Of a stretch of DNA of 64,000 bases, positions 40,001-42,246 are shown piece by piece. This DNA is from Robertmurraya massiliosenegalensis JC6. Its GTDB lineage: Bacteria > Bacillota > Bacilli > Bacillales > Cytobacillaceae. Below the pieces are notes generated by a model. It searched no databases. It had not been told where the DNA came from and saw only the letters and a list, made by a program, of their open reading frames with translations. Location of the stretch: positions 15,707 through 79,706 of the forward strand of contig NZ_HE978517.1 of the NCBI RefSeq assembly GCF_000311725.1, in the 5' to 3' direction. A program made the translations under genes and the position numbers. How positions within the stretch are numbered: the stretch's first letter is position 1; every line of letters starts with the position of its first letter.

Positions 40001-40321
40001 CTACTTAACAGCTTCCTTAACCGTTACCACTTCATATTTTCCGCCTTCTGTGCTGATGATATAGTCTGGTTTCGGTTGTCCTAGCTTTGCCTTATGTCCA
40101 GCAATGTGAGCGTCACTCTTCTCCCAGTTTTTCCAATCTTCTTCTGATTCCCAACGAATTTGCACGAGTACCTCTTCATCACCTCGTCGGACTTTTTTCA
40201 CCATCACTGTTAAATCAACAAAACCTGGTTGTTTTTCAATAATGCCTTCTTTGCTAAAACGCTCCAATACTTTATCGGCATTACCTTCCGTCACGATCGT
40301 TTTTCTCATTTGGACAAACAT
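40001..40321 (-). CDS. hmoA: Heme-degrading monooxygenase HmoA
   Basis: A 106-residue ABM/IsdG-like protein that opens the heme ring and frees iron. The sequence block RRGDEEVLVQIRWESEEDW...SDAHIAGHK closely follows B. subtilis HmoA (YetG), known to be controlled by Fur. AAGGGGAG precedes the ATG at 40321. The Fur box at 40375-40389 lies 54 bases upstream of the start. It is a single gene and ends in a shared terminator. Confidence 0.92.
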   Translation of the reverse strand: MFVQMRKTIVTEGNADKVLERFSKEGIIEKQPGFVDLTVMVKKVRRGDEEVLVQIRWESEEDWKNWEKSDAHIAGHKAKLGQPKPDYIISTEGGKYEVVTVKEAVK

Positions 40322-40426: not shown

Positions 40427-40714
40427 TTCCGGTTTGTTTAATTCAATCCACACATCTCTCACCCTTAAGCGGAATTTTTCCTGTTATCTCCTCAAAGAAG
40501 TCCCTTTTAGAGGAAATAACGGAAGATTTTCCGCTTATAGAGGGCAAAAGCGTTTATTATGGCATTTTTTGAGGGAATAGCAGGAATTTTTCCTGTTATT
40601 TCGGCTCTTTTTCATGATGGTTAGTCATTAAGCGGAATTTTTCCTGTTATTTTTTCTTACCGATACTACTACCGTTTATACAAACCTTTATCCACAAGTC
40701 GAGGCAATTTATAG
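40427..40714. repeat. Non-coding repeat element, copy 1 (~288 bp)
   Basis: This stretch and 50113-50395 are close copies in the same direction. It starts TTCCGGTTTGT and ends near GAGGCAATTTATA. It has four imperfect palindromes of the type AAGCGGAATTTTTCCTGTTAT / ATAACGGAAGATTTTCCG centred near 40477, 40527, 40588 and 40639, alternating in orientation so that they can pair with each other. No ORF is inside. It lies between hmoA and the terminator of the selenoprotein gene. Confidence 0.85.
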
Positions 40715-40723
40715 ATTCCTGAC

Positions 40724-40757
40724 AACCAAAAAACATTGTGCCTCAGCACAATGTTTT
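40724..40757 (-). terminator. Intrinsic terminator of the HesB-like gene
   Basis: AAAACATTGTGC / GCACAATGTTTT with a four-base loop, followed by TTTTTTGG on the minus strand. It starts 6 bases after the stop codon. Confidence 0.9.
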
Positions 40758-40762
40758 CTATA

Positions 40763-41041
40763 TTAACAACAGTCGCTTTCGTTCCCGAGTAACACTAAAC
40801 CATTCGCTTCCTTATTAAAATCAAGGGTTAGCCCTTCTAAATAAGGAGCAATATCAGGATCAATCGCAACTTGAATATCATTCATGGTTTCCATCTTATC
40901 ATTTTCTTCTGGCTCTTCCAGAGACAGTCCTACTTGTGGGCCGCCTCAACCATAGCCGCCAAAATAGACACGAATATTGCGAATTCCATTTTCTTGGAAC
41001 ACATTCTGCAACATATCGCGTGCTTCGTTTGTAATATTCAC
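40763..41041 (-). CDS. HesB-like selenoprotein (in-frame TGA = Sec32)
   Basis: The minus-strand reading from GTG 41041 gives 31 residues (MNITNEARDMLQNV...VYFGGYG), then TGA at 40948-40946, then GGPQVGLSLEEPEEND... to a TAA at 40763-40765 after ...NESDCC. With Sec at codon 32 the product has 92 residues. The GGxG-U-GGP site aligns with the conserved Cys of HesB-related iron-sulphur proteins, and a family of HesB-like selenoproteins is known (TIGR01911). AAGGA lies 9 bases before the GTG, and a terminator follows the TAA. A SECIS-like hairpin lies 18 bases after the TGA. The C-terminal CC pair fits a redox or metal role. The alternative, a nonsense mutation, is less likely because coding is intact on both sides. 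Confidence 0.85.
40909..40927 (-). promoter_or_regulatory. Candidate bacterial SECIS hairpin
   Basis: Downstream of the TGA, CUGUCUCU and AGAGCCAG pair (one U-C mismatch) with the loop GGA. The loop starts 27 bases after the TGA, and its first two bases are G, which fits the bacterial SECIS pattern for SelB binding. Confidence 0.7.
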
Positions 41042-41226
41042 TTACCTCATTCCTTTCTTTCATTAGCAATAACTTTTTACTTCACTTTATCATGTATCTA
41101 AATAAGAATAACAGCAATCTGTTTGGCAATCTATAGCCTGTCTACAAAATCCTCAACAGAAAAGGCATATTTCACCTAGACAAGCATATGAATCATTTTA
41201 GGACAAAGAAAAGAAAGGAAGTCATC

Positions 41227-42246
41227 ATGACAGGATTAATTTTCATTTTACTATTAGTGCTTTTTCTTCCTTTTTCAGTAAAGATCATTGAGAAGAATCT
41301 TGAAATCTTTTTGTTTTTAATGGGAATTAGTGCAGTTTGGGTTAGTGGAATATGGGAGCCCTCGTTAATCTTAAAGGCCCTCAAGGATCCTTTAAAGATT
41401 ACAATAGCTGTTTTCGTTGCTGGACTCATATTCAAATGGATGAAAGTTCCGCTCGAAAAAATGATTAAAAGAGTCAGCGAATCGATGCCCTATCCGTTAT
41501 TTTTTGCTCTTGTTGTCATTATTCTTGGGCTTCTTTCAAGCATTATCACAGCAATCATCGCTTCTCTCGTACTCGTCATCATCGTCGCCGTGCTTCGACT
41601 CGAGAGAAAATCCGAGGTCAAACTCGTCATTATTACCTGTTTCTCTATTGGACTTGGGGCCGCATTAACCCCAATTGGAGAACCGCTATCCACGATTATT
41701 GTAAGCAAATTGAATGAAGATATGTTCTTTCTATCAAAATTGATTGGTCGAGAAGTCATTCTTGGGATCATCATGATGGGAATTGTTGCCGCACTATTTG
41801 TGCAGCCTCACTTTAAAAAAACTCGTTTAGTCGCTGATAACGAGTCTGAAACCTATCAGGAAATTTTCCTTCGCACTGGTAAAATATATGTATTTGTGAT
41901 GGGACTAACCTTGCTAGGTGCTGGATTTCAGCCATTAATTGATGCCTATATTCTTGGACTTCATGAAAACATCCTATACTGGATTAATATTATTTCGGCT
42001 GTTTTAGACAATGCGACCCTTGCTGCGGCAGAAATCAGCCCCTCCATGAGCCATGAAACGATCAAAGCGATTCTCCTTGGACTCATTATTAGTGGCGGAA
42101 TGCTTATCCCAGGGAACATCCCAAATATTATCTCATCTGGAAAATTAAAGATTACCAGTTCTGAATGGGCAAAATTTGGTTTACCCTTTGGGCTCATTAC
42201 AATGACGATTTACTTTTTTGCCATTCTTGGGGATAAATATTTTTAA
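41227..42246 (+). CDS. DUF1646 family putative ion transporter
   Basis: A 339-residue membrane protein with about nine to ten helices, of the DUF1646 family in the ion-transporter (arsenite/citrate permease-like) group. Conserved segments include GLGAALTPIGEPLSTIIVSKL (near residue 155) and AVLDNATLAAAEISPSMS, the latter like the Asn/Asp pair of NhaD/ArsB-type carriers. The cargo is unknown; a cation or anion antiporter is the best guess. The start is ATG at 41227 with AAAGGAAG upstream. It lies divergent from the selenoprotein gene. Confidence 0.8.
   Translation: MTGLIFILLLVLFLPFSVKIIEKNLEIFLFLMGISAVWVSGIWEPSLILKALKDPLKITIAVFVAGLIFKWMKVPLEKMIKRVSESMPYPLFFALVVIILGLLSSIITAIIASLVLVIIVAVLRLERKSEVKLVIITCFSIGLGAALTPIGEPLSTIIVSKLNEDMFFLSKLIGREVILGIIMMGIVAALFVQPHFKKTRLVADNESETYQEIFLRTGKIYVFVMGLTLLGAGFQPLIDAYILGLHENILYWINIISAVLDNATLAAAEISPSMSHETIKAILLGLIISGGMLIPGNIPNIISSGKLKITSSEWAKFGLPFGLITMTIYFFAILGDKYF

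Follow-up and report, generated by a model that had tools for sequence, protein, structure and literature searches.

The window analysed here is a stretch of 64,000 nucleotides (nt) from Robertmurraya massiliosenegalensis JC6 (contig NZ_HE978517.1), and it contains a small minus-strand gene, interrupted by an in-frame TGA, that almost certainly encodes a selenoprotein related to HesB. Direct reading from 41041 to 40763 gives a GTG and 30 further codons, the TGA at 40948-40946, 60 more codons and a TAA ending at 40763. An in-frame TAA directly precedes the GTG, and the plus strand over 40763..41041 is interrupted by other stops. The original prediction, made from the letters alone, had described this TGA-interrupted frame, and we confirm it: the coordinates and codon counts are correct, and the strand, which had gone unstated, is minus. 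The expectation that open reading frame (ORF) callers would drop or split the gene was likewise borne out by the ordinary ORF list, which gives pieces of 31 and 43 amino acids. When the gene's own letters are shuffled, the 60 codons after the TGA are free of stops in 1.1% of 5000 trials. The features of the gene are as follows.

40763..41041, minus strand: predicted selenoprotein coding sequence, 92 amino acids, IscA/HesB fold, GTG start, TAA stop (sequence, profile and structure matches)
40946..40948, minus strand: UGA, almost certainly the codon of selenocysteine 32, in a predicted beta-hairpin turn between strands 22-31 and 34-40 (relatives' column and predicted structure)
40909..40927, minus strand: selenocysteine insertion sequence (SECIS) hairpin CUGUCUC-UGGAA-GAGCCAG, starting 18 nt past the UGA (conservation, covariation and covariance model)
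40766..40771, minus strand: codons of the C-terminal Cys91-Cys92 (direct reading)

With selenocysteine (Sec) written as U, the protein reads VNITNEARDMLQNVFQENGIRNIRVYFGGYG-U-GGPQVGLSLEEP...GNESDCC. Its only chalcogen residues are Sec32, Cys91 and Cys92, and its tail ends in DCC. The host genome carries the complete set for Sec decoding, namely selA, selB, selD and the tRNA-Sec gene (selC), so the proposal does not fail for want of machinery. The tRNA-Sec has the anticodon tca and scores 56.7 bits, above its gathering score of 47, and selD carries its own in-frame TGA, read as KAGUGCK. Within the host's family, selA scored above the cut-off in 172 of 193 genomes. Across the class, 78 of 398 Bacilli genomes gave a match at E 1e-10, 75 of them outside the host's family. 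Among these 75, selA was present in 27 of the 28 genomes with a TGA inside the match and in 5 of the 47 without one (p 2.8e-14); the TGA lies at the Sec column in nine of the 28, elsewhere in G558 and at a position left unread in 18. G558 is the one TGA genome of the 28 that lacks selA; its relative (L213) is of the Cys type, has its TGA elsewhere in the frame and is probably a damaged copy.

Relatives preserve both the codon and the frame around it. A protein search at E 1e-6 matched 136 of the 193 family genomes, Sec and Cys forms together, and a contig search with the single window protein as query returned three loci only. We examined 142 loci and dropped 12 without a tblastn hit; in the remaining 130 relatives, column 32 holds TGA in 115, TGC or TGT in 13, TAA in one and a gap in one, a TGA share that is no unbiased census because the loci were fetched mostly by similarity to the window protein. 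In all 111 type-1 relatives with TGA (L056 and L057 included), the 30 codons upstream are stop-free and the next stop falls 58-62 codons downstream. In 21 genomes of the family no selA exceeds the cut-off, and seven of these (G064, G067, G166, G170, G173, G174 and G177) have a full-length, stop-free type-1 relative. Among 113 distinct relatives, the tail terminates in Cys-Cys in 93 and has a single Cys in 20. Two proteins (L203 in G086 and L204 in G072) end in Gly-Cys-TGA followed by an immediate stop, where most relatives have Cys-Cys-stop; this may be a tandem stop or possibly a second Sec. An origin from phages or viruses was considered and rejected, as there was no phage match and none was confirmed in viral contigs.

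Bacterial SECIS elements are hairpins shortly past the UGA whose apical loop has a G near its beginning. The window hairpin begins soon after the UGA and has the early loop G, with one mismatch in its stem. Among 47 representatives less than 85% identical, synonymous identity greatly exceeds expectation at codons 38-41, 43 and 45 (GGA CTG GCT CTG ... GAG ... GAA), and also at codons 29, 31, 34, 35 and 14, while most other codons are near expectation. Codon 14 is TTG in 14 of 17 Leu codons of type-1 relatives, which is more uniform than expected. The RNA among relatives reads CUGGCUC-UGGAU-GAGCCRG. Of 100 distinct sequences, 99 have the loop UGGAN and 89 the full 7-pair stem, the latter as against 0.7% of synonymous recodings; the mean minimum free energy is -13.8 kcal/mol, compared with -9.3 kcal/mol for the recodings. 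In a covariation analysis of 38 rows, two of them (L085 and L086) from a second HesB type, both sides have changed in 5 of 7 pairs, a result that 0 of 500 shuffles matched, and slid controls are at most 45% paired. A covariance model of the SECIS hit all 8 selA-bearing genomes scanned, five or more of them being sources of its rows, and none of 8 selA-less genomes; in such searches at most 150 first-look candidates were scored per genome.

These data bear directly on the possibility that the gene is a pseudogene, a HesB-like gene with a nonsense mutation. TGA is a stop in the standard code, apparent relics exist in Sec-less relatives (L064), and one sister gene (L039) has TAA at the same site. 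Against this stand the open frame around the UGA in all 111 type-1 relatives, the conservation of the TGA, and a SECIS that covaries and around which the strongest synonymous conservation clusters. We therefore rejected a nonsense mutation in the window gene, an explanation that we regard as highly improbable. The erosion that might have betrayed such a mutation is not what near relatives display: they keep the TGA, an intact frame and a conserved SECIS. Together with the Sec machinery, this supports what the original prediction inferred, and the UGA of the window gene is almost certainly read as Sec.

Several observations weigh against that decoding. At the fourth pair, the window SECIS carries a U.C mismatch that also occurs in L107 and L154; ViennaRNA favours a different fold for this SECIS alone, and its z-score relative to recodings is -1.3. 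Five class-wide genomes have selA, yet their matches are all stop-free. One genome of the host's genus (G180, from an assembly 81% complete) has tRNA-Sec and no selA above the cut-off. Finally, two genomes without selA or tRNA-Sec hits (G172 and G176) keep an identical type-2 TGA gene, and L039 (G010) has TAA at the Sec site. We read the type-2 gene of G172 and G176 as a relic. These two identical HesB copies (L084 and L085), and an eroded type-1 fragment of G172 with a TGA and an intact SECIS stem (L064), look like remnants left recently by the loss of Sec decoding. L039 may be compared with L044 (G009), from another species of the same genus: TAA replaces TGA in L039, and the letters of the SECIS are kept. 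Use of UAA as a Sec codon was considered and rejected, as tRNA-Sec has the anticodon tca in both G010 and G009, which makes a nonsense mutation or a sequencing error likelier in L039.

Applied to the host's own genome, the SECIS model recovered the window gene, which is in the model by construction, and two type-2 HesB genes with in-frame TGA that are outside it. The shared SECIS thus led to L244 (C5:37765, minus strand) and L248 (C1:821109, minus strand), whose contexts are GVGUGGPQLRLTLEES and GIGUEGPQLRLTLEES and which have the same SECIS core. The host genome accordingly holds at least four UGA-Sec candidates, these two being joined by the window gene and selD. In another genome (G339), a third type of small protein (L252) has an in-frame TGA (YVDSUAGGEIRLTLDGS) and a weak hit to the SECIS model (E 0.0015).

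The predicted structure of the window protein, built on 4 sequences only, has IscA-like matches and the A-type carrier fold, and PF01521 (Fe-S_biosyn) scores 37 bits against a gathering score of 26.3. The two best NCBIfam hits are TIGR01911 (HesB_rel_seleno) and NF038090 (IscA_HesB_Se), whose proteins are related in sequence and share Sec at the conserved Cys. The original prediction named TIGR01911 as the family. The relationship stands, but by the cut-off test the window protein is no member, because with C in place of U it scores 56.9 bits against a cut-off of 66.35; for NF038090 it scores 47.3 bits against 85. Both curated cut-offs were also missed by all seven other type-1 sequences scanned, the best TIGR01911 score there being 63.7. 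A second explanation takes the same selenoprotein to be an IscA/ErpA-like iron-sulphur carrier or insertion protein, in which the selenolate would be a cluster ligand. The fold is consistent with it, and the arsenic linkage described below would then reflect repair of arsenic-damaged iron-sulphur enzymes. In IscA, SufA and ErpA, however, the cluster is bound by a C-terminal CxC. This motif is missing from the window protein, where Cys91 and Cys92 are adjacent instead, and 20 of the 113 distinct relatives have one tail Cys; the curated carrier models are not reached. We consider an iron-sulphur carrier rather unlikely.

Arsenic-resistance (ars) genes lie within about 1.5 kb of 54 of 109 Sec loci, 9 of 9 Cys loci, two of which (L059 and L087) encode an identical protein, and one TAA locus, and near 0 of 27 control loci, a non-random draw of 22 host-genome and 5 tRNA-Sec loci. 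This count leaves out L056 and L057, which are other records of L030 and L050. Four IscA-like loci, three type-2 loci and one relic locus were kept apart, all without ars genes, and L152 (a gap in the column, TGA by eye) has none either. On plasmids, 22 records matched, and relatives sit inside ars gene clusters in all ten regions opened: Sec forms in Cytobacillus (two regions) and Cys forms in Priestia, Sporosarcina, Niallia, Alicyclobacillus, Stenotrophomonas, Paenibacillus, B. arachidis and Planococcus. In the annotation, the Cys forms are named adhesin, iron-sulfur cluster biosynthesis family protein or HesB, whereas the Sec forms have no feature; all five Cytobacillus plasmid records matched lack a feature under the match, in a gene table that is incomplete by design, and the two opened both hold Sec forms. 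Standard annotation thus appears to overlook the window gene and its kin.

The host genome itself has two ars operons, each with a Cys paralogue at its end (L183 and L184). The window gene is homologous to such ars-operon proteins and falls in a 50-row clade that includes L031 (Shimodaira-Hasegawa-like approximate likelihood ratio 99), in a tree of 92 columns only with many forks open; ars genes are close by in 32 of the 50 rows. Among Sec loci, ars genes are close by for 52 of 90 with Cys-Cys tails and 2 of 20 with a single tail Cys (p 1e-4, from related sequences). At the Sec site, Cys forms carry two Cys, and their tails hold one or two.

On the gene, Sec machinery, SECIS, fold and operon linkage of relatives, all established computationally, we base the following model. 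SelB and tRNA-Sec, guided by the hairpin 18 nt past the UGA, would insert Sec32 into a small IscA-fold protein, in which Sec32 sits at the turn of a beta hairpin and Cys91-Cys92 in a flexible tail. The gene would be the stand-alone representative of a subfamily whose genes, coding for Sec or Cys forms, are often the last in arsenic-resistance operons. As(III) favours three ligands of the thiolate or selenolate type. Because Sec32, Cys91 and Cys92 are the only such ligands in the protein, Se32, S91 and S92 may together bind a soft metal or metalloid in three-coordinate fashion, with As(III) as the best candidate; the Cys forms, with their residues at the Sec site and in the tail, would therefore also reach three ligands. 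This count of three was noticed after the fact. The task of the protein in arsenic handling might be that of a chaperone, a buffer or a reductant, and the window copy might keep an arsenic role outside an ars operon. We give this explanation as a whole about an even chance: insertion of Sec is almost certain, and the selenoprotein, from a HesB-like subfamily linked to ars genes, probably has a soft metal or metalloid, for instance As(III), as its ligand. More tentatively, and with somewhat less than even confidence, we propose that a widespread Bacilli selenoprotein subfamily, missed by annotation where looked up, uses one selenolate and two vicinal thiolates on an IscA fold as a site specialised for As(III) or a metalloid like it.

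This assignment faces difficulties of its own. No ars gene was found by tblastn around the window gene in 64 kb, and an arsenic operon at the gene itself was rejected on that ground; we read the gene as a copy that has moved out of an operon and acquired a promoter. Nearby ars genes are missing from half of the Sec loci, and wider stretches (10-16 kb) around 18 of 18 relatives without close ars genes held none at the thresholds used. Other contexts recur; for example, one gene, which we take to be SpoVR-like, adjoins 17 loci. On the opened plasmids, 5 of 8 Cys forms end in a single Cys despite their ars operons. The C-terminal tail has a predicted local distance difference test score below 50, so the structural model does not support closeness of Sec32 and Cys91-Cys92.

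The same residues could alternatively form a selenol oxidoreductase, in which Sec32 and a tail Cys would be linked as a selenenylsulphide that thioredoxin reductase recycles. In the available passages of PMC9312934 and PMC13188914, a redox function is assumed for most prokaryotic selenoproteins. In addition, trxB is present in several ars operons, that of L183 included. However, trxB was not found at L184 and is unlisted in other operons with the gene, in plasmid gene tables that are incomplete by design. The fold matches are IscA-like, and no CxxU or UxxC motif occurs in the sequence of the window protein. An oxidoreductase seems unlikely.

Several known systems come close to the window gene or its product. 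ArsD, an arsenite metallochaperone often encoded in the same operons as relatives of the window gene, binds As(III) through three thiol ligands; this set resembles the putative Se32/S91/S92 set. A HesB-like gene in an ars operon has already been published, orf7 of the Bacillus sp. CDB3 ars1 operon (PMC4562236, PMC5481582). As described in the available passages, orf7 lies beside a dual-specificity phosphatase gene, like several plasmid relatives; it lies in an operon, whereas the window gene is outside one and has Sec. The string 'selen' is absent from the texts of both papers. SaoC is named a 'Cys-Cys-COOH selenoprotein' (NF040734) in PMC13188914, where the passages available propose Sec as a metal ligand. 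It shares Sec and, going by its name, the Cys-Cys carboxy terminus, but NF040734 is not among the NCBIfam hits of the window protein at E 0.001.

HesB-like selenoproteins are listed in PMC1794560, PMC5029168, PMC9312934 and PMC13188914, whose available passages mention neither ars linkage nor a Cys-Cys-COOH tail for them. The titles, abstract beginnings and passages available from the open-licence literature likewise tie no HesB-like selenoprotein to an ars operon, and in the part available of a 2026 review (PMC13188914) these proteins are grouped with those of largely uncharacterised function. The subfamily offers a specific, testable role for them. If the arsenic model is true, selenium biochemistry has been recruited into arsenic-resistance operons, Cys versions take over in Sec-less lineages, and the window copy is a chromosomal stand-alone form. 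Because Sec and Cys versions coexist in the host genome, a natural experiment is available.

The surroundings of the window gene contain the following features.

41051..41056, minus strand: ribosome binding site AAAGGA, 9 nt upstream of the GTG (direct reading)
41089..41117, minus strand: promoter-like TTGCTG-17 nt-CATGAT (by eye, against the upstream stretch of L031)
40730..40757, minus strand: hairpin AAAACATTGTGC-TGAG-GCACAATGTTTT past the stop codon, a possible terminator (direct reading)
40001..40321, minus strand: hmoA-like gene (PF03992), downstream neighbour (profile and tblastn)
41188..42246, plus strand: gene of a DUF1646 membrane protein (PF07854), divergent neighbour (profile and tblastn)

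The consensus promoter scan did not list the promoter-like element; hexamers TTGCTG and CATGAT with equal spacing also precede the same-genus relative L031 when the upstream stretches are compared by eye. A terminator had been predicted after the TAA, and a hairpin is indeed read there, although the terminator scan did not list it. The original prediction had also pointed to the proximity of hmoA. That gene does adjoin the window gene, at 441 bases, but the arsenic operons of relatives are the more informative context. The window gene and L031 both have hmoA downstream and a DUF1646 gene nearby: an hmoA copy, 78% identical, begins about 1 kb past the start of L031. In L185, a DUF1646 copy, 75% identical, is found about 4 kb away from the relative. 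Between the window gene and hmoA, at 40465-40650, TTAAGCGGAATTTTTCCTGTTAT occurs three times (one copy at 83%), and an inverted repeat overlaps its first copy.
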